Below the pieces are notes generated by a model, which worked only from the letters and a program-made list of their open reading frames with translations, searched no databases and was not told the DNA's origin. This document shows, one piece after another, positions 1-14,710 of a stretch of DNA of 64,000 nt. Origin of the DNA: Sphingopyxis lindanitolerans (GTDB lineage Bacteria > Pseudomonadota > Alphaproteobacteria > Sphingomonadales > Sphingomonadaceae); NCBI RefSeq assembly GCF_002993885.1, contig NZ_CM009578.1, positions 2,207,751 through 2,271,750 on the forward strand. Reading direction: 5' to 3'. Numbering within the stretch: position 1 is the stretch's first letter; each line of letters starts with the position of its first letter. A program made the translations under genes and the position numbers.

Positions 1-76
1 GATCGATCCCCGCGCGCCCCAGCGTGACGACGTCCAGCCGGTCTTCTCCGACCGTTTCATGCCCTTGCTCCGCCAT
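1..76 (-). CDS. iolC: 5-dehydro-2-deoxygluconokinase, N-terminal fragment
   Basis: Only the first 25 codons are inside the window; the gene runs off the left edge on the minus strand. The visible residues end in LDVVTLGRAGID, which matches the opening beta strand of PfkB-type sugar kinases of the IolC group. IolC phosphorylates 5-dehydro-2-deoxy-D-gluconate in myo-inositol breakdown. The assignment leans on the neighbours: an RpiR-type regulator and an inositol dehydrogenase follow at once. Another PfkB kinase is possible from so short a piece. Confidence 0.6.
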   Translation of the reverse strand, partial: MAEQGHETVGEDRLDVVTLGRAGID

Positions 77-104
77 CGCTTTTCAGACCATCCTTCCTTG
101 GTCT

Positions 105-118
105 GTAACACATATTCC
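105..118. promoter_or_regulatory. Possible IolR-type operator upstream of iolC (degenerate)
   Basis: GTAA-N6-TTCC lies 29 bases upstream of the iolC start. It matches seven of the eight fixed positions of the GGAA-N6-TTCC inverted repeat described for RpiR-family inositol regulators in alphaproteobacteria. A second AT-rich dyad centred on CATATG lies at about 133-146. Suggestive only. Confidence 0.3.
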
Positions 119-170
119 AAGTTTAGAATGTTTGCAACATATGTTTCATATGGGCATCGGAATGAAATAG

Positions 171-1043
171 CTATGCCGCCCCGTCGTCGCGCACCTTGCC
201 GTCGGTGCGCGTCGCCTCGAACGCGAAGTTGATCACCAGCGCCTGCGCGAGGCACATCGACGCCGACAGCGAACGGAATTTCCGCACTTCGGCTTCGCGC
301 ACCTGAAGGACATGCTCGGCGGGCTTGGCGACCGGGCTGACCAGGCTGTCGCTGATCGCCAGGACGCGGCCGCCATTGGCCCTGGCGGCGTTGACGACCG
401 CGATCGTCTCTTCCGAATAGGGATGAAAGCTGATCGCTATCAGCAGGTCGTCGGGACCCATCGCATGGACCTGCTGAAGCCCGAGGCCGCCGACCCCGTC
501 GATGAATACCGCGCGCTTGCCCGCCTGGAGCAGCGAATAGGCGATATAGGACGCCACCGGGAACGAGCGGCGAAAGCCCGCGACATGGACGGTATCCGCC
601 GCCATCAACAGGTCGACCGCCGTGCGCATGTCGGCGCCGCTGACCGTCTGCAGCAGATTCTGGATCGCGAGGCTGTTGCCCTCGACGAATTCGGAGAGGA
701 GGTTCGCGGGTTCGACATCGCTCGCATTCGTCGCCTGGTCGAGCTGGCGGACGCGCTCCGAATAGCCGAGCGCGGCATTGTTGCTGAGCAGCCCGTCGCG
801 GAACAATCGCTGCATCTGGCTCGCCCCCTCGAACCCGAAACTCTTGGCAAAGCGCACGATCGCCGACGGCTGGACCCCGCAGCGGTCGGCGATCACCGCC
901 AGCGTTTCGAGCGCGATGTCGTTGGGCTCGTCGAGAATATAGCGCGCAATCTGCTTGAGCCGCTTGCTCAGCGTTTCGTATCGGCTCACGATCTCGGCGC
1001 GCAATTCTTCCGCCGAGGCGGGGGCAGTCGGGACGTCGGTCAA
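171..1043 (-). CDS. iolR: RpiR/MurR-family transcriptional regulator of inositol catabolism (IolR-like)
   Basis: A 290-residue regulator with an N-terminal helix-turn-helix of the RpiR type (about residues 15-90, with RYETLSKRLKQIARYIL and a CGVQPSAIVRFAKSFGF recognition segment). A C-terminal SIS sugar-phosphate-binding domain follows (about 130-270). The frame is open to a TTG at 1088, but the TTG at 1043 has a strong GGGGAG ribosome site seven bases upstream and removes a non-conserved leader, so I start there. That choice also puts the dyads at 1074-1087 and 1132-1145 outside the gene. It sits between iolC and the divergent iolG, so it probably represses both until an inositol-derived sugar phosphate binds the SIS domain. 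Confidence 0.8.
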   Translation of the reverse strand: MTDVPTAPASAEELRAEIVSRYETLSKRLKQIARYILDEPNDIALETLAVIADRCGVQPSAIVRFAKSFGFEGASQMQRLFRDGLLSNNAALGYSERVRQLDQATNASDVEPANLLSEFVEGNSLAIQNLLQTVSGADMRTAVDLLMAADTVHVAGFRRSFPVASYIAYSLLQAGKRAVFIDGVGGLGLQQVHAMGPDDLLIAISFHPYSEETIAVVNAARANGGRVLAISDSLVSPVAKPAEHVLQVREAEVRKFRSLSASMCLAQALVINFAFEATRTDGKVRDDGAA

Positions 1044-1073
1044 ATAGTTTCTCCCCCGTTGATCCGGAAAAAC

Positions 1074-1174
1074 GGAATATCTGTTCAAAACTTGTAACGC
1101 AACTGTCGCCCTGCGGCATTTCTCGCGCTATGGAATATATGTTCCATATTATGTATGTATGGAAGATGATTTCA
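1074..1174. promoter_or_regulatory. Flanking half-matched IolR-type sites
   Basis: GGAA-N6-TTCA occurs at 1074-1087 and again at 1161-1174, on either side of the perfect site. Each misses the last base. Three sites 87 bases apart could allow cooperative or looping repression; this is inference. Confidence 0.35.
1132..1145. promoter_or_regulatory. IolR-type operator GGAA-N6-TTCC in the iolR-iolG divergent promoter
   Basis: GGAATATATGTTCC is a full match to GGAA-N6-TTCC, and the dyad extends one base each side (TGGAA...TTCCA). It lies 45 bases upstream of the iolG ATG and 88 bases upstream of the regulator start, where a repressor could control both genes. Confidence 0.6.
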
Positions 1175-1190
1175 ACCGGAAGAGGATAGA

Positions 1191-2174
1191 ATGCACGATA
1201 TCGCACTGATCGGCGCCGGCAGGATCGGCAAAATCCATGCGGCGAACCTGGCCGCCAACCCGCGCCTGCGGCTGACGCGGGTGGTCGATCCCTTTCCCGA
1301 GGCGGCGGCGGCGATCGCCGCGCAATATGACGCGCGCGTCTCGACGGTCGAGGAGGCGCTGGCCGACCCGGCGATAGCGGGAGTCGTGGTCGCGAGTTCG
1401 ACCGACACCCACCTGCCCTACAGCCTCGCCGCCGCCAAGGCCGGCAAGGCGATCTTCTGCGAAAAGCCGCTCGATCAGGATCTGGCCGCCGCGCGCGAAT
1501 CGGCGGCGCGCTTCGCGGCGCTGGACGCGCGGCTGTTCCTCGCCTTCAACCGCCGCTTCGACCCGAATTTCGCGGCGTTGCAGGCGCGGCTTGCCGGCGG
1601 CGCGGTCGGCACGCTCGAAACGCTGCACATCATCAGCCACGACCCCGCGCCGCCGCCGGTCGATTATATCAAGGTATCGGGCGGCATCTTCAAGGATATG
1701 GTGATCCATGATTTCGACATGGCGCGCTGGCTGCTCGGCGAGGAGGTGACCGAAGTCTTCGCCAGCGCCTCGGTGCTCGTCGATCCCGCGATCGGCGAAG
1801 CGGGCGACGCCGACACGGCGAAGACGATCCTGCGCACCGCGTCGGGCCGCCTGTGCGTCATCTCGTCGAGCCGCCGCAGCGGCTATGGCTATGACCAGCG
1901 GATCGAGGCGTTCGGATCGAAGGGCATGATCCGCGCCCAGAACCAGCTCGAAACGACGGTCGAGACCTGGGGCGAGAATGGCGCCGCGGCCGACCGCTTC
2001 CAGAATTTCTTCCTCGATCGCTATGCCGTCGCCTATGCGCGCGAGACCGACCATTTCGCCGACATTCTCGACGGCGGCGCCCCGCTCGTCGACTTCCGCG
2101 ACGGCGTCGCGGCGCTCGCGCTGGCCGAAGCGGCGGCGCAGTCGGCACAGACCGGCGAGCGGGTGCGGCTTTGA
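1191..2174 (+). CDS. iolG: Inositol 2-dehydrogenase (Gfo/Idh/MocA family)
   Basis: A 327-residue cytosolic NAD-dependent dehydrogenase that oxidises myo-inositol to scyllo-inosose, the first step of inositol catabolism. The Rossmann motif GAGRIGKIH is at residues 8-16. The family lysine is in EKPLD (K92). The catalytic Asp/His pair is in DMVIHDFDMARW (D169 and H173). Length is normal for the family. The start ATG is preceded by AGAGGA. It is divergent from the RpiR regulator and ends in a perfect 9-bp hairpin. The iolC/regulator context favours inositol over other Gfo/Idh substrates. Confidence 0.85.
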   Translation: MHDIALIGAGRIGKIHAANLAANPRLRLTRVVDPFPEAAAAIAAQYDARVSTVEEALADPAIAGVVVASSTDTHLPYSLAAAKAGKAIFCEKPLDQDLAAARESAARFAALDARLFLAFNRRFDPNFAALQARLAGGAVGTLETLHIISHDPAPPPVDYIKVSGGIFKDMVIHDFDMARWLLGEEVTEVFASASVLVDPAIGEAGDADTAKTILRTASGRLCVISSSRRSGYGYDQRIEAFGSKGMIRAQNQLETTVETWGENGAAADRFQNFFLDRYAVAYARETDHFADILDGGAPLVDFRDGVAALALAEAAAQSAQTGERVRL

Positions 2175-2180
2175 CCAAGA

Positions 2181-2212
2181 GGCGGGCGGCAAGATCACCG
2201 CCCGCCGTTTCT
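2181..2212 (+). terminator. Rho-independent terminator after iolG
   Basis: A perfect 9-bp stem (GGCGGGCGG paired with CCGCCCGCC) with an 8-base loop is followed by GTTTCT. It lies seven bases after the iolG stop and before the converging gene. Confidence 0.7.
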
Positions 2213-2216
2213 CCCG

Positions 2217-3443: not shown

Positions 3444-3679
3444 ATTCTGCTCCCCCTTTAGCCCCCGAGCCGAAGCTCAGCATTTCTGTGATGGCATAGG
3501 CGAGCCCCGTCAACCAGCTAGGTAGAGACCGGATTTCCACGGCAACAGAAGGGTTTGGCGCGGCCGGTCCGTGGTGCCACATCAGGAAGAAAGCTGGCCC
3601 CGCGCGGCTTCCCGCAAAAGAAAAGGAGATCATGTCGTTTGCAAACACATCGGCTGTCGGCCGACCTCATTCATTCTCT

Positions 3680-3784
3680 CGTCACCCTGAACTTGTTTCA
3701 GGGTCCATGGCCTGCCCTCGAATTGGACGCAGCTCTGCCTGAGAGAGTAGATCATGGATGCTGAAACAAGTTCAGCATGACGAG
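3680..3784. repeat. Interspersed palindromic repeat (CTGAACTTGTTTCAG family) in a 432-base gap
   Basis: Two inverted copies face each other: CCCTGAACTTGTTTCAGGG at 3685-3703 and GCTGAAACAAGTTCAGC at 3760-3776, each also flanked by CCATGG/CATGG. This type of dyad is common in sphingomonad intergenic DNA. The rest of the gap 3444-3875 holds no convincing gene; only the receptor terminator at its right end is functional by sequence. Confidence 0.7.
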
Positions 3785-3820
3785 GGTGGCGAGGGTGTGT
3801 TTGCAAGCTCCACAATCGCC

Positions 3821-3850
3821 AAAGAAAAGGGGCCGGGTTTCCCCGGCCCC
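3821..3850 (-). terminator. Rho-independent terminator of the first TonB-dependent receptor
   Basis: Read on the minus strand, GGGGCCGGG and CCCGGCCCC form a 9-bp perfect stem with a GAAA-type tetraloop, followed by TTTTCTTT. It begins 25 bases after the receptor stop. Confidence 0.85.
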
Positions 3851-3875
3851 AGGTCCAGTGCTCCCCTGCAGAGGA

Positions 3876-6431
3876 TCAGAATTTGAACTGGATGCCCGTC
3901 TTGAGCGAATAGCCGTAGCGCTCGACCTCGTCGGTTCGCGACGATATGCCCTGATAGACGCGATAGGGTTCGTCGTTGAGGTTCGATCCTTCGAGGAAGA
4001 TCGTCACATTCTTGACGATGTCATAACCGATGCGCGCGTCCCACTGGTTGAAGGCGCCGACATAGAGATCGCTGTCGGTATCCCCGCCGGGCTCGAGCAG
4101 ATAGGCCGAGCGGTAGGTATAGGCGATGCGCGCCGACAGCCCGCCCTTTTCATAGGCGAGGAAAGCCGACGCGACCCGGTTCGACTGGCTGGCGAGCGGC
4201 AACCGCTCGTCGCCGCGGCCCGGAATGCCCTTGGCGCGCGATTTCACGAAGGTGATGCTGCCGCCGACGCTGAAACCATCGAGCGGCGCGGGCAGGAAGC
4301 TGAGCTCGGTCTGCGCGTTGATCTCGATGCCCTTGACGAAGGCGCTGTCGGCGTTGACCGGCATCGTCACCTGCGCATCGACCAGCGCCTGCCCGGCGAA
4401 GGTTCCGCTCTGCTCGGTGGTCGCCGAATAGATCGGATTCTCGATCGTCTTGTAGAAGCCGGCGACGCTGATGATGCCCTTGCGCCCGATATAGAATTCG
4501 CCCGCAAGGTCGTAATTGGTCGAGGTGAGCGGCCTCAGATTGGGGTTGCCCATCGTGACTTCATTGTCGCCGGTGTTGACGACCGTCGTCGGCGCGAGCT
4601 GTTCATAGTTCGCACGCCCGATCGCCCGCGTCACCGCGGCGCGAAGGACGAGCGACTCGGTTGCGTTCCAGCGCAGGTTCAGGCCCGGAAAGAAATCGGT
4701 GTAGCTCTGCGCCCCGAAGCTGTCATAATCCTTGCCAAGGTCGGCGACGGTCGTGGTGTCGAGGATGTCCTTCGCCGCATAATTGCTCTTGGTCTTTTCC
4801 ATGCGGACGCCGGGGATGGCGGTGAAGGGCCCGAATTTCAGCGTCGCCATCGCATAGGCGGCGAAGATCTTCTCGCGGATCAGATAATCGGCGGCGAGGC
4901 TGTCGCCGACGGTGCCTTCCTCGTCGATCTCGAAACCGGCGAGATTCGACTGGAAGAAGCTGTCGGCGCTCGGGCGGCTGATCGTCGCGCCGAAGGGGTA
5001 GCGGCCCTTGAAGATACTGTCGATCGAGCCGTCCTGGACCTGATCGAGCGTGAAATCGTCGTCATAGCCGCCGTAAATCACCGATTCGGCGTCGTTGGTC
5101 TTGCGCCGCTGCGTATATTTCGCGCCGATCTGGATCGTGCTGTCGTCACCGATGCCGATCGGAGTGCGGAAATCGGCGCGCGCCTGATAAAGATCCTCGC
5201 GGGCGCGGCGATGCTCGTAGCTCGTTTCGTCGAATTTATATTTGGTCGGATCGAACGCCGTCGCACCGGACTGATAAAGCGGGATCGTTCCCGACAGGTC
5301 GTAGGATCCCGTGATGTTCTTGGCCGCAAAGATGATTTCGTCGCGATGCGGGTCGCGCTTGTTGGCGCGGGTGTAGCTGCCCTCGACGCGCAGCCAGCTC
5401 GGACCGAGATCGAATTCGCCGCCGAGCGACGAGGTGAAGGTGTCCGAATCCTCCTCGCGCGAACGCAGCGCCCGCTTCGCCTTGGCGCCGGTGAAATCGC
5501 CGCTGGTCGCGGTCTGGTTCGTGATCGCGTCTTCGTCGAGATCGACCTGGAAGCCCGGACGCGATTCCTTGTCCTTATATTTGGAATAGAGGAAGCGCGC
5601 ATATACCTTCACGTCGTCGGTCGGGCGCCAGTCGAAATTCGCGACCGCGCCATAGCGCTGGCGGCGGGTGTGATAGTCGCGCAGCGTCTGGCGCAGCGGC
5701 ACGAATTCGCCGCCCACCTCCTCCCAATTACCGCCCGACTGGATGTTCTGCGCCTCGAACTCGCGGTTGGAATAGTTGAGCGCGAAAACGAAGCCGAACT
5801 GGCGGTCGGGGCCAAAGCGCGACCCGATCGAGGCGTCGAATTCATAGGGATGCTTGCCGTTGAGGTCATATTTGCCATAGGCGGCGCGCAGGCTGCCGAA
5901 CGTGCCCGATCGGTCAAAGGCCGACACGGTCTCGATGTTGGCGGCGCCCGCGATCGCGTTGGCGTCCATGTCGGGGGTCAGAGTCTTCGACACCGTCACC
6001 GCGCCGATCAGCGCCGAGGGGATGTCGTCGAGCTTTACCTGGCGCGAATCGGGTTCGGGGGCGGCGGCGGTCTGGCCGTTCAGCGTCACGTTGAGCAAGT
6101 CGGGCGATACGCCGCGGACGGTGAGGTAGCGCCCCTCGCCCATGTCGTTCGAGACGCTGAGGCCCGGCAGGCGGCGCAGCGTTTCGGCGACATTCTGGTC
6201 GGGCAGGCGGCCGACATCGTCGGCGCGAACCTCGTCGACCTGCGTATCGGTGTTGCGCTTCGTTTCGAGCGCCGCGCGGTCGGCGGCGCGGCGGCCGCTG
6301 ACGACGATCGCATCGCCCTGGTCCGCTGCGGTTGTCCCCGCCGCGGCCGACGAATCCTGCGCCCAGGCGCCCGTCATCGGGACCGCCAGACATGTCGTGA
6401 GCAAAAGCGCCCGTCCGAACCGCCGTGTCAT
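3876..6431 (-). CDS. TonB-dependent receptor (TIGR01782-like), candidate inositol-phosphate receptor
   Basis: An 851-residue outer-membrane receptor. The signal peptide covers residues 1-25 (cut after GAWA). A TonB-box-like DAIVVSGRR segment follows at about 40-48. The plug contains RLPGLSVSNDMGEGRYLTVRG and LNVTLNGQT, features of the Xanthomonas/Caulobacter-type receptor class TIGR01782. The C-terminus ends in aromatic F (IQFKF), as Bam substrates do. It has its own dyad operator, a Pho-box-like pair upstream and a strong terminator downstream. It sits just after the two-component operon and near the phytase-like gene, so uptake of phosphorylated inositol is a reasonable guess. Such receptors also take glycans or siderophores, so the substrate is inferred. 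Confidence 0.85.
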   Translation of the reverse strand: MTRRFGRALLLTTCLAVPMTGAWAQDSSAAAGTTAADQGDAIVVSGRRAADRAALETKRNTDTQVDEVRADDVGRLPDQNVAETLRRLPGLSVSNDMGEGRYLTVRGVSPDLLNVTLNGQTAAAPEPDSRQVKLDDIPSALIGAVTVSKTLTPDMDANAIAGAANIETVSAFDRSGTFGSLRAAYGKYDLNGKHPYEFDASIGSRFGPDRQFGFVFALNYSNREFEAQNIQSGGNWEEVGGEFVPLRQTLRDYHTRRQRYGAVANFDWRPTDDVKVYARFLYSKYKDKESRPGFQVDLDEDAITNQTATSGDFTGAKAKRALRSREEDSDTFTSSLGGEFDLGPSWLRVEGSYTRANKRDPHRDEIIFAAKNITGSYDLSGTIPLYQSGATAFDPTKYKFDETSYEHRRAREDLYQARADFRTPIGIGDDSTIQIGAKYTQRRKTNDAESVIYGGYDDDFTLDQVQDGSIDSIFKGRYPFGATISRPSADSFFQSNLAGFEIDEEGTVGDSLAADYLIREKIFAAYAMATLKFGPFTAIPGVRMEKTKSNYAAKDILDTTTVADLGKDYDSFGAQSYTDFFPGLNLRWNATESLVLRAAVTRAIGRANYEQLAPTTVVNTGDNEVTMGNPNLRPLTSTNYDLAGEFYIGRKGIISVAGFYKTIENPIYSATTEQSGTFAGQALVDAQVTMPVNADSAFVKGIEINAQTELSFLPAPLDGFSVGGSITFVKSRAKGIPGRGDERLPLASQSNRVASAFLAYEKGGLSARIAYTYRSAYLLEPGGDTDSDLYVGAFNQWDARIGYDIVKNVTIFLEGSNLNDEPYRVYQGISSRTDEVERYGYSLKTGIQFKF

Positions 6432-6494
6432 TATTGCCTCTCCTCCCCGGCACGGCTCCTTGCCGCGCTCGTTCGGGCATCATAATGGCACAAT

Positions 6495-6522
6495 TATTCT
6501 ATATTGCAAGTAAAATAGAATA
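6495..6522. promoter_or_regulatory. 8-bp inverted repeat upstream of the receptor gene
   Basis: TATTCTAT-N12-ATAGAATA is perfect over eight bases per arm and lies about 64 bases upstream of the receptor ATG, in an AT-rich island. An outer partial dyad (TGCACAA-like ends) surrounds it. The spacing of arms suggests a dimeric repressor or activator. The arms are unlike both the iol operators and the Pho-like boxes, so a different regulator is implied. Confidence 0.55.
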
Positions 6523-6577
6523 TATCTTGCACAATGGCTTGGCGCGGCACGCGGCGGCGCGGCGCGGCACGCCCGAT

Positions 6578-6595
6578 CTGACACCAGGCTGACAG
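6578..6595 (-). promoter_or_regulatory. Pho-box-like direct repeat upstream of the receptor (site A)
   Basis: On the minus strand this reads CTGTCAG-CCTG-GTGTCAG, two TGTCAG heptads 11 bases apart. The layout and core match the PhoB box (CTGTCAT-N4-CTGTCAT). It lies 147 bases upstream of the receptor start, just after the sensor kinase stop. Confidence 0.5.
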
Positions 6596-6600
6596 GAAGT

Positions 6601-7938
6601 TCAGTCGGATAGCGTCCAGCCGACGCGGACTTCAAGCCCCCCGAGCGGCGAGCGCGCCAGGACAAGGTCGCCGCGCGTCGCTTCGGCAAGCTCGCGCGCG
6701 ATGGCAAGGCCGAGCCCATGGCCCTCGCCGCCCGAATCGAGCCGCGCGCCGCGCAGGATCGCTTCGCCCCGCTGCGCGCTGTCGAGCCCGGGCCCGTCGT
6801 CGCCAACGATCAGCATCCGCCGGCCGTCGGCCGTCTCGACCGCGACATGGACAAGGCGGCGGGCATGGCGCGCGGCATTTTCGAGCAGTGGCCCGAGCAG
6901 TTCGGCGGCATCGTCGCTCGCGAGCGGTAGCGTCGCGCGCTCGTCGCAGGCCAGCGAAAAGGCGACGCGCTCGCCCGCCCCGGTCAGTTCGATCACCGCG
7001 ACGAGCCGCTCGATCAGCGGCAGCGCCTCGGTGCTGCGCCCTTCGGGAACGAGGCTGATCCGCGTCCGCGCCAGTTCGCCGTCGATCGCCGCGCGCATCG
7101 CGGCGATCGACGAATCGAGGCCGTCGGCCAGCGCCGCCGCGCCGCCTTCGCGCGCCCGCGCGCTTTGCGCGGCGAGCGCGGCGAGCGGAGTCTTGAGGCC
7201 GTGCGCCAGGTCGGCGGCGCGGCGCCGCGCGCGCACCAGATCGGCCTCGCGCGCATCGGCCAGCGCGTCGATCGATTCGGTGAGCGGCGCCAGCTCGCGG
7301 GGATAGGTGCCGCCAAGCCGCGCCGAGGCGTCGCGGCGCAGCCGCTCGACCTCCTGCCCGACGCTTCGCAGCGGGCGGAGCCCCAACCCGACCTGCGCCC
7401 AGGCCGCGAGCGCGAGCGCGATCCACAGCAACACCAGGAACAGCGCCATCTCGCGCCCGAATTCGCGCTGCGCCGGCGCCAGCTTGGCAAGGTCATAGCC
7501 GAGCTGAACGATCACCGGAGGTTCCTGCGGCTGCAGGCGGATCGCGCGTTCCATCAATAGCAGATGCTGGCCGAAGGGACCCTCGGCGCGGCGGATCCGC
7601 CAGCGGTCGGCAGGCGCCGCCGCGGCAGGCGGCAGATGGCTGTCCCAGAGCGAGACCGAACGGATCGCGCCGCCGCCGGTCGAGGCCTGCCAATACAGCC
7701 CGCCGGCGGGAACCGCGAAGCGCGGGTCGGCGGGTTCGGACCCCGCGACCGGGACGCCGCGCGCCAATTGCAGGTCGGCGAGCAGCGGCCGCACCTGGAC
7801 CAGCAGTTCGTCCTCGACGCGCCGCTCGACATGGCCGTCGAACAGCCACGTCATCGCGAACCAGGCGACGAGCAGCGCAAGAGCGATCGCCACCCCGGCC
7901 CCCGCGATCAGGCGAAGCCGGAGCGAGCCGCCCGTCAT
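6601..7938 (-). CDS. Sensor histidine kinase, PhoQ-like
   Basis: A 445-residue inner-membrane kinase. TM1 is about residues 9-31 and TM2 about 164-186, flanking a periplasmic sensor of roughly 130 residues. A HAMP-like linker precedes the HisKA box ADLAHGLKTPLAAL with phospho-acceptor H246; the HGLKTP form is the PhoQ style. The ATPase domain has N box LLENAARHA, G1 GDDGPG and G2 GHGLGLAIA. The start ATG overlaps the response-regulator stop (ATGA), so translation is coupled. Longer starts would run into the regulator gene and lack support. It should phosphorylate the regulator encoded just upstream; the signal is unknown, possibly a cation, acid stress or phosphate/phytate state. Confidence 0.88.
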   Translation of the reverse strand: MTGGSLRLRLIAGAGVAIALALLVAWFAMTWLFDGHVERRVEDELLVQVRPLLADLQLARGVPVAGSEPADPRFAVPAGGLYWQASTGGGAIRSVSLWDSHLPPAAAAPADRWRIRRAEGPFGQHLLLMERAIRLQPQEPPVIVQLGYDLAKLAPAQREFGREMALFLVLLWIALALAAWAQVGLGLRPLRSVGQEVERLRRDASARLGGTYPRELAPLTESIDALADAREADLVRARRRAADLAHGLKTPLAALAAQSARAREGGAAALADGLDSSIAAMRAAIDGELARTRISLVPEGRSTEALPLIERLVAVIELTGAGERVAFSLACDERATLPLASDDAAELLGPLLENAARHARRLVHVAVETADGRRMLIVGDDGPGLDSAQRGEAILRGARLDSGGEGHGLGLAIARELAEATRGDLVLARSPLGGLEVRVGWTLSD

Positions 7939-8600
7939 GCGGCGGCCGCCGGCAGGAGATAGCCAAAGCCGCGCCGCGTCCGGATGGTGTCGGGGCCGAG
8001 CTTGCGCCGCAGCCGCGCGACCAGCGCTTCGATCGCATTGGCGTTTTCGGTGTCGGCGTCGCCATAGAGATGGTCGGACAATTCGGTCGCGGGCACGGCG
8101 CGGCCGGGGTGATGGGCCAGATAGTCGAGCAACCGATATTCGAGCGGCGAAAGCTTGACGAGCGCGCCGTCGAGCGTCGCGGTCATCCGGTGGGTGTCGA
8201 TCCGCAGCGGCCCCGCCTCGAGCGTCGGGCTCGAACGCCCCGCCGCGCGGCGGACCAGCCCGCGCACGCGCGCGATCAATTCCTCCATCGCCCACGGCTT
8301 TGCCATATAATCGTCGGCGCCGGCCTCGATCCCGGCGACCTTGTCGGTCCAGTCGCCGCGCGCCGACAGGATCAGGACAGGAAAGCCACGCCCCGCGTCA
8401 CGCCAGCGCTTGATGACCGAGAGGCCGTCGAGTCGCGGCAGGCCGAGATCGACGATCGCGACGTCATAATCCTCGACATCGCCGTTGAACCAGGCCTGCT
8501 GGCCGTCACCGGCAAGGTCGACGACGAACCCGGCGGCGGTCATCCCGCGAACCAGTTCGGAAGCGACGACGGGATCGTCTTCGACCACCAATGCGCGCAT
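7935..8600 (-). CDS. OmpR/PhoP-family response regulator
   Basis: A 221-residue regulator. The receiver has the acidic pocket EDD (residues 7-9), phospho-acceptor D51 in VDLGLPRLDG and the switch lysine in KPW. The C-terminal winged helix (about 125-220) has the OmpR-type signature SPLEYRLLDYLAHHPG. A TTG one codon upstream of the ATG at 8600 is possible, but the ATG overlaps the PepSY stop as TGATG, which fits coupled translation. It is partner of the downstream kinase. Paired TGTCAG heptads at 11-base spacing in this locus are the usual target geometry for this family, so it or the global PhoB may bind them. Confidence 0.88.
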   Translation of the reverse strand: MRALVVEDDPVVASELVRGMTAAGFVVDLAGDGQQAWFNGDVEDYDVAIVDLGLPRLDGLSVIKRWRDAGRGFPVLILSARGDWTDKVAGIEAGADDYMAKPWAMEELIARVRGLVRRAAGRSSPTLEAGPLRIDTHRMTATLDGALVKLSPLEYRLLDYLAHHPGRAVPATELSDHLYGDADTENANAIEALVARLRRKLGPDTIRTRRGFGYLLPAAAA

Positions 8601-8914
8601 CAATCATCCTCGATCTTGAGTATCCGGCCGGTCCGGGCGTCGACTTCGACCTCGCGCACCCTGCCGCTTCGGGTGAGGATTTTCACCTCATATTTGAACC
8701 CGAAGGATTCGCGCTCGAGCTTGACCTTGAGCACGTCGCCCGGAACGCGTTCGGTCGCGATCGCCAGAACGCGCACGATCGGCAGGATTTCGCCGCGGGC
8801 CAGCGCCGCGCTGGCGGCGCGCTGATCGGCTTCGTCGTCCTTGTCGCTCGCGAGCGACAGGGCGGGGGTGGCGAGAGCGACCATCGCGGCCGCAAGCAGA
8901 TAGATTTTCTTCAT
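8600..8914 (-). CDS. PepSY-domain periplasmic protein
   Basis: A 104-residue exported protein: signal peptide MKKIYLLAAAMVALATPALS, then one small PepSY-type domain (about residues 30-104) ending in RSGRVREVEVDARTGRILKI, the typical strand-turn-strand of the family. The ATG at 8914 has a strong AGGGAGGG site; the upstream in-frame extension lacks conservation. It is first in an operon with the response regulator and kinase (1-base and 4-base overlaps). PepSY proteins next to OmpR/PhoP systems are common and may tune the sensor; that role is inferred. Confidence 0.82.
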   Translation of the reverse strand: MKKIYLLAAAMVALATPALSLASDKDDEADQRAASAALARGEILPIVRVLAIATERVPGDVLKVKLERESFGFKYEVKILTRSGRVREVEVDARTGRILKIEDD

Positions 8915-8937
8915 GGCCCTCCCTTGCCACAGGCGCG

Positions 8938-8955
8938 CTGACATCAAGCTGACAC
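8938..8955 (-). promoter_or_regulatory. Pho-box-like direct repeat in the PepSY-phytase divergent region (site B)
   Basis: Minus strand reads GTGTCAG-CTTG-ATGTCAG, again two TGTCAG cores 11 bases apart. It is 23 bases from the PepSY ATG and 124 bases from the phytase-like GTG. The distance to the phytase gene resembles that of site A to its receptor. The strand orientation points towards PepSY, so the target gene is uncertain. Confidence 0.5.
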
Positions 8956-9079
8956 CGGCTATCGATCCGATTTCCCCGGCGCCATATTTTCTCGACACAG
9001 GACATTGATGAAATATATTTTCTGATTTATACAGTATCGATAAATTTATTCCACACCTGTTCCACAAGGGAGAGAGCCT

Positions 9080-10309
9080 GTGAAGCCCATCCTGCTTTTA
9101 TCCGCCGCGCTGCTCGCGGCCTGCGCCGCGCCCGCGCCGGGTGCCGATGCGTCGTCCCCCGAACCGGGACCGCTGAAGCTCGAAAAAGTGGTGATGCTGA
9201 TGCGCCACGGCATTCGCCCGCCGACCAAACCGGCGGTGGTGCCGCCAGGCTATTCGCCTGAAAAATGGCCCGACTGGCCGGTCGATTTCGGCCTGCTGAC
9301 GCCGCGCGGCGCGGCGGGGGTCAAGCTGCTCGGCGAAAGCGACCGCCTCTATTTCGGCGGTCGCGGTCTGTTTCCGGACGGGTGCCCCGCCGCGGGCACG
9401 ATCGTCCTCAAGGCAAGTTACAAGGAACGCACGATCGCCACCGCGCAAAGCTGGGCCGCGGGCTTCATGCCCGGCTGCGCGACGGACGTCGCGCATCCCG
9501 CCAGTCCGGGCGATGACGCAATCTTTCACGGGCTCGACGGCGGCCCCGCCTCGTTCGACGGCAAGCGCGCGTTCGACGCCGCGCTCGCCCAGGCCCCCGA
9601 GGGCGGGCTGGCCGCCGAGACCGCGCGCTATCGCGGCGAACTGACCTTGCTGGCAAGGGTGCTGAACTGCGCGCTGCCCGCCTGTCCGCTGATCGCCGAG
9701 CCGAGCCGGCTGGTGGCGCAGCCGCACGATCGCCCCGATATCGAAGGCCCGCTCGACGTCGGATCGACCGCGAGCCAGACGCTCGTGCTCGAATATCTGG
9801 AGGGCAAGCCGATGGCGGAGGTCGGCTGGGGCCGGGTGAGCCGCGCCGAGATCGAGCAATTGCTGCGCTTTCATCCGCTCAAATTCCGATATTCGAACCG
9901 TCCGGGCTATATCGCCGCCGCCGCCGCCGCGCCGATCGTGCGCGAAATCGTCACGGCGCTCGGCGATCAGAGCCCGGCGCGGCTGACCTTGCTTGCCGGT
10001 CACGACACGAACGTCGCCGATCTCGGCGGCTTTTTCGACCTGCACTGGCAGGTGCCGAGCTATCCCGCCGACGAAGTCCCGCCGGGCAGCGCGCTGGGGT
10101 TCGAACTGGTCAGCAACGCAAAGGGCGACCGCTATGTCCGCGCCTTCTATCGCGCGCAGACGATGGACCAGCTCCGCAATCTCGAGCCGCTGGGGTCGGG
10201 CGACGCGCTGTTCCGCCGCTATCTCGCCATTCCCGGGTGCGGCAATTCGGCCGAGCCCACCGCATGTAGCTGGAGCGACTTCGCCCGGCTCGCCGCGCCG
10301 CGCGGATAA
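9080..10309 (+). CDS. Histidine acid phosphatase lipoprotein, phytase-like
   Basis: A 409-residue histidine phosphatase (branch 2, AppA/acid phosphatase group). The catalytic motif RHGIRPP has nucleophile H43, and the proton-donor motif GHDTN has H308-D309; HDTN is the phytase-like form. The N-terminus MKPILLLSAALLAAC has a lipobox with C15, so the enzyme should be anchored to a membrane facing the periplasm or outside. The GTG start is preceded by AAGGGAGAG. It releases phosphate from organic esters, with phytate the best guess given the inositol genes 7 kb away and the receptor/two-component context. Glucose-1-phosphatase or general acid phosphatase activity cannot be excluded. It converges on the next receptor with three bases between stops. 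Confidence 0.85.
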   Translation: MKPILLLSAALLAACAAPAPGADASSPEPGPLKLEKVVMLMRHGIRPPTKPAVVPPGYSPEKWPDWPVDFGLLTPRGAAGVKLLGESDRLYFGGRGLFPDGCPAAGTIVLKASYKERTIATAQSWAAGFMPGCATDVAHPASPGDDAIFHGLDGGPASFDGKRAFDAALAQAPEGGLAAETARYRGELTLLARVLNCALPACPLIAEPSRLVAQPHDRPDIEGPLDVGSTASQTLVLEYLEGKPMAEVGWGRVSRAEIEQLLRFHPLKFRYSNRPGYIAAAAAAPIVREIVTALGDQSPARLTLLAGHDTNVADLGGFFDLHWQVPSYPADEVPPGSALGFELVSNAKGDRYVRAFYRAQTMDQLRNLEPLGSGDALFRRYLAIPGCGNSAEPTACSWSDFARLAAPRG

Positions 10310-10312
10310 GGC

Positions 10313-12340
10313 TTATCCTCCGAAGCTGCGCTGGACGGTAAGCCCGACATAGCGCCCGCTGCGCAGCACGCGCAATTCGCGATAGCGCAGCGCGCTGTCG
10401 CCGCGGACACCGGCATAGATGTCGCGCGTCCGCGTCGCAGGACTGTCGGTCAGATTCTTGCCGAACAGGCGAAAGGTCCAGCGTGCGTCGGGACGATATT
10501 CGACGAACAGGTCGAGCCGCCCGGCCAGGCGGTCGGCCTCGACCTCCTCGACCTTGAACGCCGTTTCGGTGCGCGCGAAGGCAAAGCTGCCGCCCCAGCG
10601 CAGCTTCCACGCCGGAATATCGTGAGTCAGCGCGATCCGCGCTTCGACCGGAAGGTCGCCCGAGATGGGGCGGCGCTCGCCGGTCGAGGGATCGGTCGCC
10701 CGGCCGCGCCGCGCGACAAGGTCGGCGGTCACGACGACGCCCTTGGCGCCAATCCCGTCAAGCGGCCATTTCAGCGACGCTTCGACGATATCGCGCCGCG
10801 CCGCGCCGATATTGCCGACCGCGTCATAGACGGTCCCGTCGGCGACGACCGGCAATTGGTCGACCAGATCGGATATCCATTCGCGGCGCGCGGCGAGGGT
10901 GAAGGATCCGGCGCCGAAGCGGCGCTCGTAGGTCGCCTCGATGCGCCAGAGGCTGTCGGGCTCCAGATCGGCATTGCCGGCGCTGATCGTCCCGCTGGTC
11001 AGCGATGCGGCGCCGACGAAATCGCCGAAATCGAGCTGGCCGACCTCGCGCTCGACCAGCAGGCGCAGCGTCTGGTTCGGCGTCGGGGTCCAGATCAGCC
11101 GCGCGCGCGGTTTCCAGAAAGCGAGCGATTTGACGAGGTCGATGTCGCCCGTCTGCGACAGGCGCGACATTTCATATCGGATCCCCAATTCCGCCGTGAG
11201 CCGCGCATCGAGCGGTCGGCTCGCGGTCGCGAAGAATTCGGCGCGATGCTCGGCAACCCGGACATTGGCCTGGGGCAGCAGCACGGGGTCGCCATCCTCG
11301 ATCAGCGCGTTGCGGCTGTCGAGAATGTTGATCGCCCCCTCGGCGCCGATCTCGATCGCCCAATCGCCCCGATGATGGCGGAGTGCGGCGCGCAGAATCG
11401 CCTCGCTGGCGTTCGCGCGTTCGTCGGAGAGGCTGCTTTCCGACGCGCTCGTCTCGCGGTCGATGCCGACCGTCGCCACCGATCGATAGCTTCCGACCAG
11501 TTCGAGGTCGTTCGCCGCGCCGAGCGCGCGTTCGTAGCGAAGCCCCCCTTCCCAGGTGCGCGCATGTTCGCGCTCGCTGCCGGTGATCGCATCGGGGGCG
11601 GGGAAGGTGACGGCATAGGCGATGTCGGCGAATTTCCGCTTGTCCTGGACCAGCCCGTTGAGGCGAAGCGTGCCGCCGAACAGCGGCTGGCGATAGGCGA
11701 GCGTCGCCTGCGCGATATCGGCGCCCTCGGGCTGCGCATAGCGGGCGAGACGCAGCGGCGCGCCGTCGCTCGCGAAGCGGTTGCGGACCCCGAAGCCATG
11801 TTCGTCGTCGATCTCGCGATAGACGGTCCCGAACAGGTCGAGCACCCGGCCGTGTCCATCGACCGTCGCCTGCGCCGAAAAGCGGGGGCCGCGGCGCCCG
11901 TGACGATAGAGCGCCTGCTCGGCCTCGATCCGGCCGCTGATCGTGCCGGCTTTCGCCAGCACGACATTGGCGAGCAGCGCATAGCCCTGCATGTCGTGGC
12001 TGGCCGACCCGGCGCGGATCAGCTCGATCCGCGCGACGCGCGCCGCGGGAATGCGTTTCAGGATCGCGCCCAGCGTGTCGGTCTTTCCAGCCGGGCGCTG
12101 ACCGTCGATCAGGACATTGCCCGCCGCCCCCGAATAGCCGCGCACGTCGCCATCGCCCTCGACGAGCGTGAAGCCCGGGAGCAGCGCCACCATTTCATAG
12201 GCGTTCGACGGCTGCGTGCGGTCAAAGAAATGCTTGTCATAGGTCGCGGCCTGCCCGCCCGCGCCCTCCTGTCCGGCGGCGGGCAGCGGCGCCGCGGCGC
12301 CGATCCACAGCAGCAAAGCGATACGAACGCCATATGTCAC
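10313..12340 (-). CDS. TonB-dependent receptor-like outer-membrane protein
   Basis: A 675-residue outer-membrane protein with a signal peptide (cut after PLPAAGQ, about residue 24). A plug domain (about 45-130) contains LLPGFTLVEGDGDVRGYSG and NVLIDGQRPAGK, then a long beta-barrel. The plug opens directly with a YDKHFFDRT segment and I see no clear TonB box, and the C-terminus ends SFGG rather than F. It may be a receptor variant, or be fed by TonB through a cryptic box. It is encoded tail-to-tail with the phytase-like gene and head-to-head with a urea transporter. A Pho-box-like pair lies 85 bases upstream. A role in uptake of phosphate esters or nitrogenous products is inferred. Confidence 0.75.
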   Translation of the reverse strand: MTYGVRIALLLWIGAAAPLPAAGQEGAGGQAATYDKHFFDRTQPSNAYEMVALLPGFTLVEGDGDVRGYSGAAGNVLIDGQRPAGKTDTLGAILKRIPAARVARIELIRAGSASHDMQGYALLANVVLAKAGTISGRIEAEQALYRHGRRGPRFSAQATVDGHGRVLDLFGTVYREIDDEHGFGVRNRFASDGAPLRLARYAQPEGADIAQATLAYRQPLFGGTLRLNGLVQDKRKFADIAYAVTFPAPDAITGSEREHARTWEGGLRYERALGAANDLELVGSYRSVATVGIDRETSASESSLSDERANASEAILRAALRHHRGDWAIEIGAEGAINILDSRNALIEDGDPVLLPQANVRVAEHRAEFFATASRPLDARLTAELGIRYEMSRLSQTGDIDLVKSLAFWKPRARLIWTPTPNQTLRLLVEREVGQLDFGDFVGAASLTSGTISAGNADLEPDSLWRIEATYERRFGAGSFTLAARREWISDLVDQLPVVADGTVYDAVGNIGAARRDIVEASLKWPLDGIGAKGVVVTADLVARRGRATDPSTGERRPISGDLPVEARIALTHDIPAWKLRWGGSFAFARTETAFKVEEVEADRLAGRLDLFVEYRPDARWTFRLFGKNLTDSPATRTRDIYAGVRGDSALRYRELRVLRSGRYVGLTVQRSFGG

Positions 12341-12425
12341 GCGCGGGGCCCCTTCGGCAGGCGGGTGCCATCCCCGCTCTCCGCAGCCCTATCGGCCAGG
12401 CGCGCTGACAATTGCGCCGCGATCG

Positions 12426-12443
12426 GCGTCAGCCTTTTGTCAG
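12426..12443 (+). promoter_or_regulatory. Pho-box-like direct repeat in the receptor-urea transporter divergent region (site C)
   Basis: Plus strand reads GCGTCAG-CCTT-TTGTCAG, two cores 11 bases apart, one of them with a mismatch. A lone CTGACA lies at 12405-12410. The pair is 132 bases upstream of the urea transporter ATG and 85 bases upstream of the receptor ATG. Confidence 0.45.
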
Positions 12444-12575
12444 CTTCGCGGGATGGGGCGGGCAGGCCCTGCCGACGAACGGTGCCGCCCCTTCCCATCC
12501 GTCGCTTTTGCCGTCTACGATAGGAAGGGTGCACGCCGGGGCAGCGGCGCGGCGTCACTCGGGGAGCTTTCGGCG

Positions 12576-13571
12576 ATGGCGACATATTTTTCAGCGACGG
12601 GGCTGACCGACAACGACAAGGATCCGCTGCCCGCCCCGCTGCGCTTCCTCGATCATCTGCTGCGCGGTGTCGGCCAGGTAATGTTACAGAACAACAGCTA
12701 TGCCGGACTGCTCTTCCTGGTCGGGATTTTCTATCATTCGCCGCTCTTCGGATCGGCCGTGTTGATCGGAACCGGAGTGAGCACGGCCACCGCCATGCTG
12801 CTGGGCGTCGATCGCAGGCTGGTGCGGGCGGGGATGTTTGGTTTCAATGGCGGGCTCGTCGCCGTCGCCCTGCTCACCTTCCTGCAACCCAATGCGCTGA
12901 CCTGGGCCTTGCTGGTCTTCACCGCCGCCTGTTCGACAATCGTTATGGCCGCGATGCTGCGCTTGCTCGCCGTCTGGAAGCTGCCCGTGCTGACCGCCCC
13001 GTTCGTCTTCATCTCGTGGTGCGTCTTCCTCGCCACCGCACGCTTCGGCCGGCTTGAGTCCACCCATCTTTTGCCGACCGCGGGACTTCCCAAGGCGGTA
13101 ACGGTCGAAGGCGTGGTAACGGCATCGACGATCGGGGAGGGCCTGTTCAATGGCATCGCGCAGGTCTTTTTTCAGGGCAATCTCGTCACCGGCCTGATCT
13201 TTGCGATCGGCCTCCTCATCGCTTCGCGGGTCGCCTGTGCGGCGGCCTTGGCGGGATCGCTGATCGGTCTCCTCGTCGCCTGGGGCATGGGTGCTGCCGA
13301 ACCGGCGATCCGATCGGGCGCGTTCGGTTATAATGGCGTACTTGTCGCCGTCGCGCTGGGCAGCAGTTTCTTCGCGCTCGACAGGCGCTCGCTTGCCTAT
13401 GCGCTGCTCGCGGCGATCGCCACCCCGCTGGTGTTCGCAGGCGTTTCGGCCGCGCTGGAGCCGCTGGGCATCCCCGCGCTGACCTTTCCCTTCGTGCTCG
13501 TCACATGGCTGTTCCTGCTCGCGGCCGCGCTCTTCCCCTCGCTACGGCCCGCGACCGATTCGGGGGTCTGA
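12576..13571 (+). CDS. Urea transporter (UT family)
   Basis: A 331-residue polytopic inner-membrane protein with about ten hydrophobic segments arranged as two homologous halves. Each half carries the family pattern: GMFGFNGGLVAVAL with LTAPFVFISW in the first, and GAFGYNGVLVAVALG with LTFPFVLVTW in the second. These match SLC14-type urea channels, which pass urea down its gradient. The ATG at 12576 follows GGGGAG; a longer frame to 12453 is not supported. No urease genes are in the window. Shared control with the neighbouring receptor is possible. Confidence 0.85.
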   Translation: MATYFSATGLTDNDKDPLPAPLRFLDHLLRGVGQVMLQNNSYAGLLFLVGIFYHSPLFGSAVLIGTGVSTATAMLLGVDRRLVRAGMFGFNGGLVAVALLTFLQPNALTWALLVFTAACSTIVMAAMLRLLAVWKLPVLTAPFVFISWCVFLATARFGRLESTHLLPTAGLPKAVTVEGVVTASTIGEGLFNGIAQVFFQGNLVTGLIFAIGLLIASRVACAAALAGSLIGLLVAWGMGAAEPAIRSGAFGYNGVLVAVALGSSFFALDRRSLAYALLAAIATPLVFAGVSAALEPLGIPALTFPFVLVTWLFLLAAALFPSLRPATDSGV

Positions 13572-13828
13572 CCGCTCGATGGCGCGAATAGGAACGCGGC
13601 ACGGTCAGGCCGACCTGCTTGCAAAGATCGCAGGCGCCTTGCCCTTATAGCCTCGATATCAAGGAAGAATTTGGCGCACCGCGACCGGCGAAGATGAGCA
13701 TTACGGTTTCGCCATTGCACTCTAGGTTGCGCAACGCGTCCTGCGCGGTTCTGTGCTTCAAGGCACGAACGTCCGAAATGGGGTGGGAACCGGACGTTTT
13801 GGAGCAACTTCATTTTGACCGGTTTGAG

Positions 13829-14710
13829 TTACCAAATCCTCTTGGCGACCATGCCACCAAAGATTGACACCGACAGGCCGATCGCACCGAGCACAAGCCA
13901 AAGCATGTTGAAATTCGAATAGGAAACTTGGCGAGCTTCCTGCGGGTTTGAGCGCAAGTAATAGACCTTTTCCTGCTCGCCCACTTCGAACAGGCCGTTT
14001 CCATAAATAGAGTTCACCCGATAAACGACCCCATCGACCTCGTATTGCAGGACACCCATTTTACTTTGGTGATCGAGAGATTGTTCTGGGTTCACGTATG
14101 TCGCCATGGTGGCAATCCCATCTCGCCGAAATCGCTGATCATCCTGAAGCCCGGTAATCGCGGCGAACAAAGCACCCGCTCCCCAAATCGCGAAGAAAGC
14201 ACGAGCAAACAAGAAGGTGCGGTTCTTTCGTGGGCTGGCATTCTCTTTGAGCTCGCGATCACCCGGCACCGTAACGCGAGAACCGATCGCTCGCTCGAAC
14301 GCCTTCTCGTCATGCAGCACCACCTCTACCGGCGCGGGGCCGCCGCGAGTGAATTCGATTCGTAGTGCCTTTTGGAATAGCGAGGACACCGGTTTCACAG
14401 AGGCAACGGCGCCAACCGGCACCTTGATATCCAGTCCGTAAATCTCAGGCAGAAACATGAGGTTGAACGGAAATTGAGGCGTTATGATCAACTTCCCTTT
14501 TCGCACCGCTACGAGAATACATCGGCTAGCGCCGCCAATCTTGGACAATGGGCTCTTGAGCGATCGTCCAGAGCATCCCTTCTCACCGAACTCAGCGTCG
14601 TCAGGCAGCCGGGGAAAAATGGGCTCGCCCTTCGAGCGACGATACCAGATGGAAACTACCACAAAACCAAGAATCCACAGAAAGGGAGTGAAGAAAATCC
14701 ATTGGGGCAT
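13829..14710 (-). CDS. Membrane protein with DUF3592-like domain
   Basis: A 293-residue protein of unknown function. TM segments are near residues 3-22, 165-185 and 265-290. The cytosolic or lumenal middle part (about 40-150) has a beta-rich PH-like look. The C-terminal part (GIATMATYVNPEQ, LQYEVDGVVYRVN, EQEKVYYLRSNPQEAR) matches the beta sandwich of DUF3592 proteins, which sits between two TM helices. An in-frame GTG at 14716 has a better-spaced AGAGG site than the ATG and may be the true start. Lower GC than its surroundings suggests transfer. It is alone in its direction. Confidence 0.6.
   Translation of the reverse strand: MPQWIFFTPFLWILGFVVVSIWYRRSKGEPIFPRLPDDAEFGEKGCSGRSLKSPLSKIGGASRCILVAVRKGKLIITPQFPFNLMFLPEIYGLDIKVPVGAVASVKPVSSLFQKALRIEFTRGGPAPVEVVLHDEKAFERAIGSRVTVPGDRELKENASPRKNRTFLFARAFFAIWGAGALFAAITGLQDDQRFRRDGIATMATYVNPEQSLDHQSKMGVLQYEVDGVVYRVNSIYGNGLFEVGEQEKVYYLRSNPQEARQVSYSNFNMLWLVLGAIGLSVSIFGGMVAKRIW

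Follow-up and report, generated by a model that had tools for sequence, protein, structure and literature searches.

What reads the three short direct repeats scattered among the sensor, phytase and receptor genes of this Sphingopyxis lindanitolerans locus, and which genes does it control? We considered this question in a window comprising the whole 64,000-nucleotide stretch of DNA that was analysed (Table 1). Our answer, which we hold to be very probable, is that the repeats are predicted operators to which the response regulator encoded among them would bind once phosphorylated, and that they control genes for the use of phytate.

Three direct repeats and the genes around them

The three sites listed in a preliminary description agree with the sequence in both position and letters: CTGTCAGCCTGGTGTCAG (6578-6595) and GTGTCAGCTTGATGTCAG (8938-8955) on the minus strand and GCGTCAGCCTTTTGTCAG (12426-12443) on the plus strand. 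The 11-base period described there stands, but the 7-base halves separated by four bases do not; each half-site has 6 bp and the spacer has 5 bp, and the consensus of the box is CTGACA-N5-CTGAC(A/G). All three boxes are intergenic, and their orientation relative to the gene varies. Box 1 lies 6 bp past the stop codon of the kinase gene (6601-6603) and 146 bp 5′ of the start of receptor 1, and box 2 is found 23 bp 5′ of the ATG of the PepSY gene.

Table 1. Features of the Sphingopyxis locus, in window coordinates
Feature	Position	Strand	Basis or remark
RpiR-family regulator, IolR-like	171..1088	-	NF008590 78.9 bits (cut-off 355; positions 171-1043 scanned); position
IolG, inositol 2-dehydrogenase	1191..2174	+	TIGR04380 416 bits (cut-off 355); last gene of the adjoining inositol locus
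TonB-dependent receptor 1 (TIGR01782 type)	3876..6431	-	Pfam and NCBIfam
Palindrome TTCTAT-N12-ATAGAA	6497..6520		Receptor-1 promoter
Box 1, TGTCAG-N5-TGTCAG	6578..6594	-	Exact match; upstream of receptor 1
Sensor histidine kinase, UrpS-like	6601..7938	-	HATPase_c
OmpR-family response regulator, UrpR-like	7935..8603	-	Response_reg and Trans_reg_C; start TTG 8603 or ATG 8600
Small PepSY protein	8600..8914	-	PF03413; leads the PepSY-regulator-kinase set
Box 2, TGTCAG-N5-TGTCAG	8938..8954	-	PepSY/phytase divergent promoter
AppA-like phytase/histidine acid phosphatase	9080..10309	+	NF007552 221.2 bits (equivalog cut-off 585): AppA-like, not a member by that model
TonB-dependent receptor 2	10313..12340	-	Pfam
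Extra inverted TGTCAG half-site	12405..12410	-	3′ of box 3 when read along receptor 2; 7/8 aligned loci
Box 3, CGTCAG-N5-TGTCAG	12427..12443	+	86 bp 5′ of receptor 2

Among the 25 NCBIfam models listed for the response regulator, PmrA, QseB and PhoP rank highest, the score being below the cut-off for all of them, and its closest solved DNA-binding domain is that of CarR. For the kinase, PhoQ is the best model, its match being confined to the catalytic part (residues 165-439). The sensor region of the kinase has no cysteine and is balanced in charge, and an AlphaFold model (mean pLDDT 82, pTM 0.44) predicts strands between residues 56 and 149 in this part. The solved structures closest to the AppA-like phytase are the phytases 4arv and 8xm1. 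By eye, the N-terminus of the PepSY protein resembles a signal peptide. The iolCDEBA genes adjoin the IolR-like regulator, at and past the edge of the window.

Might the repeats be accidental, or the sites of an unrelated regulator? The chance estimate varies with how loosely the motif is written. A loose form (up to two mismatches to TGTCAG-N5-TGTCAG) is not rare: the window has three matches where 1.43 would be expected, and this count is reached in 16 of 100 shuffles. The exact form CTGACA-N5-CTGAC, which was picked after the sites had been seen, occurs three times in positions 6301-12720, and none of 2000 dinucleotide shuffles reaches three (mean 0.0015). In the whole 4.37-Mb genome this exact form has three matches, all inside these 5.9 kb. 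Elsewhere in the genome there are 35 places with one mismatch, compared with a total of 20 for the reversed control pattern. Of the 35, 27 were retrieved as loci: 20 of the 27 fall within genes according to our gene caller, and the 3-kb loci around the 27 contain no homologue of the seven window proteins. On these grounds we dropped the idea of a wider regulon in the organism's own genome. Genes and starts outside the window were called with a home-made program based on codon usage.

Conservation of the box with one two-component family

The strongest evidence for the boxes is the conservation of their positions in relatives, which is independent of any motif threshold. Box 1 and box 2, the latter before the PepSY gene, are each kept in 11 of 11 Sphingopyxis loci (own locus counted), and box 3 in all eight that carry receptor 2 at the locus (own plus seven relatives); C is invariant at positions 1 and 12 over the 30 aligned sites. 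The kinase is at least 87% identical in the 10 relatives, the copy of G064 being in two pieces. Among 80 genomes of the genus, a box lies 5′ of each of the 14 receptor-2 genes found, including two that are distant from the sensor genes (G013 and G014, unlinked); for L071, L072 and L074 the receptor-2 starts taken are non-start codons, and only the presence and orientation of the box count there. At E 1e-30, the phytase has orthologues in 11 of the 80 genomes, exactly those that carry the close orthologue of the kinase, and receptor 2 (E 1e-100) occurs in 13 of 80, every one of which has this kinase family. Genus genomes lacking a kinase of at least 45% identity give 36 motif matches in 65 genomes, compared with 8 for the reversed control in all 80; thus, this box or one much like it may also be recognized by another regulator.

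Varying the spacer revealed the tandem half-sites, 11-bp repeat and fixed spacing of an OmpR-family direct-repeat operator. All 33 PepSY promoters examined in the family carry the box with a spacer of 5 only; spacers of 0-4 and 6-11, and the reversed motif, were found in none of the 33, and the box is absent from all four promoters of a different PepSY two-component system. The 33 are the fetched loci that have a PepSY gene and a kinase at least 42% identical to that of the window, which omits L251 (kinase 35%, contig end, no PepSY called) as well as L077, L078 and L080 (31-34%, no PepSY match), where the box is located 5′ of the regulator. Of 23 PepSY starts checked, 18 are ATG and five (L071, L072, L073, L075 and L076) are non-start codons, so that at those five loci the presence of the box alone counts. 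The spacer control contradicts an origin by chance, as do fixed positions and spacing kept in both Sphingopyxis and Caulobacter, and we give accidental repeats, or the sites of an unrelated regulator, a negligible probability.

The preliminary description had also counted a urea transporter as a member of the regulon. That assignment has lost its support, because box 3 is kept in seven relatives with receptor 2 and no transporter match was obtained in any of the 20 loci searched, the stretch beyond box 3 being covered for about 4 kb in six of the seven and for 0.4 kb in L063.

The Caulobacter counterpart and the candidate regulators

In Caulobacter, the box lies 5′ of the PepSY gene and of a non-homologous beta-propeller phytase gene at all 12 loci with a kinase at least 72% identical to that of strain Root343. 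Strain 602-1 has the same beta-propeller phytase and no box within 260 bp of it; this strain gives no match to the Root343-type kinase at E 1e-60 and has a more distant kinase (34% identical to that of the window). The box follows the two-component family, whichever phytase or receptor adjoins. One locus (L241) has the uninterrupted order phytase, IolG, IolR, C, D, E, B, A, PepSY, regulator, kinase, which by gene count, and provided that tags are consecutive, matches the run from CCNA_01353 to UrpRS (CCNA_01362/01363) of C. crescentus. The iol operon lies within the fetched stretch at 7 of the 12 Caulobacter loci, and the exact CCNA order is that of L241, not of Sphingopyxis. The linkage of phytase and iol genes that characterizes an UrpRS-type system is nevertheless found in the window's own genome. 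The window pair shares 72% (regulator) and 51% (kinase) identity with the Root343 pair at the UrpRS position. Judged by sequence, the response regulator of the window is most likely an orthologue of Caulobacter UrpR. Another UrpRS candidate, at Caulobacter L200-L203 (kinase 31%), has no box beside it and was dropped in favour of the L197/L241 locus; the five scanned neighbours of L200 include no phytase, and two of them are cytochrome c biogenesis genes.

The Sphingopyxis cluster shares with the UrpRS/phytase locus of C. crescentus a PepSY-regulator-kinase set lying close to a phytase and to iol genes. In contrast, the phytase beside this set is AppA-like, the cluster includes two TonB receptors, and the genome's own beta-propeller phytase stands, without a box, at the distal end of the iol genes. 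Because the box is missing there, at receptor 1 of Caulobacter Root343 and at the second phytase of BIN43 (L211), the regulon differs among lineages. Given its conservation in Sphingopyxis, at receptor-2 and PepSY promoters and at Caulobacter phytase loci, the box most likely serves the local UrpR-type regulator as its operator. The earlier proposal that the three sites form one regulon under the locally encoded regulator is borne out to this extent, in that box and two-component family go together in both Sphingopyxis and Caulobacter.

PhoB had been named as the other candidate reader, which would place the cluster in the phosphate-starvation regulon. The Pho box is likewise an 11-bp direct repeat with a TGTCA-N6-TGTCA core and phosphate-related targets; read on the box strand, it has A or G at positions 1 and 12, where the 30 aligned sites have an invariant C. 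Compared with CTGTCAT-N4-CTGTCAT, boxes 1 and 2 have mismatches at 3 of 14 positions and box 3 at more. A Pho-like site with three mismatches occurs in 2 of 13 Caulobacter phytase promoters (L198 and L243), and the C. crescentus phytase CCNA_01353 is a member of the PhoB regulon according to the available text of PMC11208175. Nevertheless, the best Pho match in the other 11 promoters has at least four mismatches, and the box itself is present in 12 of the 13 and missing in 602-1, which is without a close kinase. The PhoB of this genome is a separate gene (C1:413292), scoring 337.1 bits with TIGR02154 (cut-off 296.2) against 141.9 for the local regulator, and its recognition helix is of the E. 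coli type. A Pho-box match (2 mismatches of 14) lies 5′ of the gene group containing phoB; a genome scan at two mismatches gives 11 such places and 5 for the reversed control, so that single Pho matches are weak evidence. The differences in flanking bases, regulator and co-occurrence led us to reject PhoB as the reader of the boxes, and we regard the Pho-box interpretation as very unlikely.

The recognition helix of the regulator begins with NA(I/V/L)EA in 16 of 16 aligned regulators from box loci. Two regulators at loci without a box (L079 and L200) have NTIEV, and at L199 an NTIEV regulator is preceded by a box with one mismatch. Two 6-bp half-sites with a 5-bp spacer are also the architecture of the PmrA box. 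The local regulator resembles PmrA/BasR and other OmpR-family regulators of hexamer repeats in having PmrA as its top model, and differs in the half-site CTGACA and in its helix, NAIEALVARLRRKLG.

It is also conceivable, if improbable, that the local regulator reads the boxes while PhoB, and perhaps an IolR-like repressor, acts through other or overlapping sites. Such dual control would fit the PhoB-regulon membership of CCNA_01353 and the Pho-like sites at two Caulobacter phytase promoters. It would also fit the palindrome in the receptor-1 promoter, possibly a second, predicted regulator site: TTCTAT-N12-ATRGAA is kept in all 11 Sphingopyxis loci and in Root343, TTCYAT-N12-ATRGAA has one exact match in the genome (the receptor-1 palindrome itself), and TTCYAT-N11/12-ATRGAA is found also at iolG and, with one mismatch, at the beta-propeller phytase. 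Against it, positions 1-14000 contain, besides boxes 1 and 2, one place within three mismatches of the Pho box, and this lies inside the regulator gene. The palindrome is moreover unlike the published IolR motif, GGAA-N6-TTCC as given in the available text of Boutte (2008), which makes IolR a doubtful owner of it. The inositol module described there shares iolG, an RpiR-type regulator and iolCDEBA with the neighbourhood of the Sphingopyxis cluster, and its motif differs from the box as well.

A predicted phytate regulon

Returning to the local UrpR-type regulator, we suggest that its dimer would bind the two CTGACA half-sites head to tail, like other OmpR-family regulators. Binding at box 2, 22-24 bp 5′ of the PepSY start, would result in autoregulation of the PepSY-regulator-kinase genes, and the AppA-like phytase and two TonB-dependent receptors would presumably be switched on rather than repressed. 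The signal that the kinase senses outside the cytoplasm may be phytate itself, one of its breakdown products or a complex of phytate with metal, and the PepSY protein is a putative accessory. The phytase would then release phosphate and inositol, the latter being consumed by the products of the neighbouring iol genes.

Alternatively, the kinase might sense metal cations (uranyl, Fe, Ca or others) and not phytate, in a metal-stress or iron-phytate system. The PmrA, QseB, PhoP and PhoQ-type systems, to which the best models of the regulator and the kinase (catalytic part only) belong, are linked to metals, and TonB receptors often carry metal chelates. The uranium-responsive UrpRS is in use in biosensors. 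The available text of a review (PMC8963506) describes the response of Caulobacter UrpRS to uranium and calls indirect induction by this metal a hypothesis. The conserved partners of the pair are two unrelated phytases and inositol catabolism, which argues against metal sensing, as do the lack of cysteine and the balanced charge of the sensor region, and we consider metals doubtful as the signal.

In plants phytate is the main phosphorus store, and in soil it forms a large organic phosphorus pool; to our knowledge its sensing by bacteria is little defined. UrpRS was already known; the present study adds the predicted operator, its occurrence in Sphingopyxis as well, and the receptor genes. The literature searched contained no account of an operator of this kind, and the original UrpRS study (Park and Taffet 2019), which was outside that search, may give one. 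We speculate, with some reserve, that the box marks an ancient regulon for phytate sensing, common to two alphaproteobacterial orders represented by Sphingopyxis and Caulobacter, in which the operator and the PepSY-regulator-kinase set stay, the phytase has been swapped between two unrelated folds, and the presence of receptors and iol genes varies. If this is true, the kinase would be a dedicated sensor of phytate (inositol phosphate), and uranium a stand-in acting through phytate or phosphate chemistry. The conserved operator would list the members of the regulon, namely two receptors, two kinds of phytase, the PepSY protein and the sensor pair, and would predict targets in trans, such as the unlinked receptor-2 genes. 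It would also give the uranium-responsive UrpRS a likely natural role.

A conserved repeat at three promoters

The preliminary description had noted three direct TGTCAG repeats at neighbouring promoters, and all three were confirmed at their coordinates (see the table); on the opposite strand they read CTGACA-N5-CTGAC(A/G), and we refer to them as boxes 1–3. The exact form CTGACA-N5-CTGAC, which was chosen after the sites had been seen, has three matches in the 4.37-Mb genome, all at this locus, and none of 2000 shuffles of 6301–12720 contained three. With one mismatch, the genome holds 35 such places (20 for the reversed control); at two mismatches the window count is unremarkable, being equalled or exceeded in 16 of 100 shuffles. 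The degenerate form CTGAYR-N5-CTGAYR has three matches in the 64-kb window and none in the 16.9-kb stretch at its left edge. Seven of eight loci also keep a TGTCAG half-site in inverted orientation downstream of box 3.

Features of the locus and its left flank (L219, the stretch left of the window)
Feature	Position	Strand	Remark
RpiR regulator	171–1088	-	neighbour of IolG
Palindrome	1142–1164		iolG promoter
IolG	1191–2174	+	
Receptor 1 (TonB-dependent)	3876–6431	-	
Palindrome	6497–6520		receptor-1 promoter
Box 1	6578–6594	-	
Kinase (UrpS-like)	6601–7938	-	
Regulator (UrpR-like)	7935–8603	-	
PepSY	8600–8914	-	
Box 2	8938–8954	-	
AppA-like phytase	9080–10309	+	
Receptor 2 (TonB-dependent)	10313–12340	-	
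Half-site	12405–12410		inverted TGTCAG
Box 3	12427–12443	+	
Urea transporter	about 12580–13571	+	
Beta-propeller phytase, 666 aa	L219:1494–3494		far end of iol cluster
Palindrome, one mismatch	L219:3570–3593		promoter of this phytase

Distribution with the kinase in Sphingopyxis and Caulobacter

The kinase is found at 87% identity or more in 11 of 80 Sphingopyxis genomes, this one included, and a relative of only 45–50% in four others; in one genome (G064) the gene matches as two pieces about 170 bases apart (L070:9490–9660). Boxes 1 and 2 are each retained in all 11 close-kinase loci and box 3 in all eight with receptor 2 on site, and both CTGA cores are invariant across the 30 aligned sites. 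The AppA-like phytase occurs in the same 11 genomes, and receptor 2 in 13 of the 80, each with the kinase family; a box precedes all 14 receptor-2 genes found. Two genomes (G013, G014) have, instead of receptor 2 at the locus, a homologue (67–68%) elsewhere in the genome, far from it, with an exact box 83 bp ahead of its called start, which suggests a regulon target in trans.

By a hand tally of the match list, CTGACR-N5-CTGACA has 36 matches in the 15 kinase-family genomes and 36 in the other 65 (reversed control, eight in all 80); the motif is enriched alongside the system, yet not restricted to it. Three genomes lacking a kinase of at least 45% (L136, L142, L143) carry a box ahead of a 247-aa gene facing a 109/537/326-aa gene set, so a different regulator may use a similar box. 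An identical CTGACAATTTGCTGACA recurs in G017, G036, G041 and G076 (L129, L130, L100, L102), preceding a gene of about 420–440 aa in the two loci inspected, L129 and L130. Where kinase and regulator are more distant (33–34% and 43–44%; L077, L078, L080), two boxes stand face to face directly ahead of the regulator gene.

A match to the kinase of strain Root343 (E 1e-60) was found in 17 of 61 Caulobacter genomes; in 12, counting Root343 and BIN43, its identity is at least 72%. In all 12 loci a box precedes both the beta-propeller phytase and PepSY; within the retrieved stretches, seven hold the iol operon, six the AppA-like gene and four receptor 2. Root343 has the gene set around the iol operon, with one box common to the beta-propeller phytase and AppA-like phosphatase and another common to receptor 2 and PepSY, followed by regulator (72% identical to ours), kinase (51%) and receptor 1 (53% for its first fragment and 43% at full length), at which no box was found. 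Four loci with 46–48% kinases keep a box ahead of PepSY and behind the kinase, with no phytase in the retrieved 20 kb. Strain 602-1, whose phytase is of the same beta-propeller kind (83% over 334 residues), serves as a natural control: it has a more distant kinase, none matching that of Root343 at E 1e-60, and the 260 bp ahead of its phytase contain no box.

At PepSY promoters, the CTGAYR pair stands at spacer 5 in 33 of 33 examined, and neither spacers 0–4 and 6–11 nor the reversed motif gave a match in any of them. The distance from box end to PepSY start, always ATG, is 22–24 bp at each of the 11 Sphingopyxis loci and of the 12 Caulobacter loci with a kinase at ≥72%. The four named Caulobacter genomes compared, Root343 among them, each carry a second PepSY–regulator–kinase set (L200–L203; kinase 31%, regulator 51%), and none of its four promoters has the box; the 866-aa upstream neighbour in L200 matched no Pfam family at E 1e-3.

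PhoB or the local regulator

PhoB had been proposed as one possible reader of the box, and this is not supported: the PhoB of this genome is a separate gene (C1:413292; 337 bits, cut-off 296.2) with a recognition helix, RTVDVHIRRLRKAI, matching that of E. coli PhoB (1gxp), RTVDVHIRRLRKAL. The local regulator scores 142 and is a better fit to the PmrA, QseB and PhoP models, reaching the cut-off of none; its helix is NAIEALVARLRRKLG. This helix begins NA(I/V/L)EA in 16 of 16 aligned regulators of box-bearing loci, a comparison that omits the L080 regulator, missed by the gene caller; NTIEV occurs in L079 and L200, which lack the box, and in L199, with a one-mismatch box. A Pho-box match with two mismatches precedes the gene group containing phoB, in which gene order and lengths point to pst genes. 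Because C. crescentus has the phytase CCNA_01353 in its PhoB regulon (PMC11208175), PhoB input in addition to the box is quite possible.

Inositol genes, UrpRS and a proposed circuit

At and beyond the left window edge lie iolC, D, E, B and A, a transporter and the beta-propeller phytase. This second phytase is unrelated to the AppA-like one and matches that of Root343 at 64% over 336 residues; no box was found at it. The palindrome TTCYAT-N11/12-ATRGAA, whose receptor-1 copy is the sole exact N12 match in the genome, resembles palindromes in four Caulobacter loci (L197, L237, L241, L244) and is possibly an IolR-type site, although the published IolR motif differs.

According to a review (PMC8963506), UrpRS of C. 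crescentus, CCNA_01362/01363, regulates phytase CCNA_01353; Boutte 2008 (PMC2597717) lists idhA as CC1296, iolR as CC1297 and iolCDEBA as CC1298–1302. The order in the Caulobacter locus L241 is phytase, IolG, IolR, C, D, E, B, A, PepSY, regulator, kinase, and counting onward from 01353 makes the last two 01362 and 01363; from gene position, we read this pair as probably orthologous to UrpRS.

We infer that the regulator binds the box, as well as the direction of control and the signal. Most probably, an extracytoplasmic signal would pass through the kinase to the regulator and thence to the box, whose output would be the PepSY–regulator–kinase genes, phytase and receptors; phytate would be stripped to phosphate and inositol, and the inositol would be consumed by the products of the iol genes.
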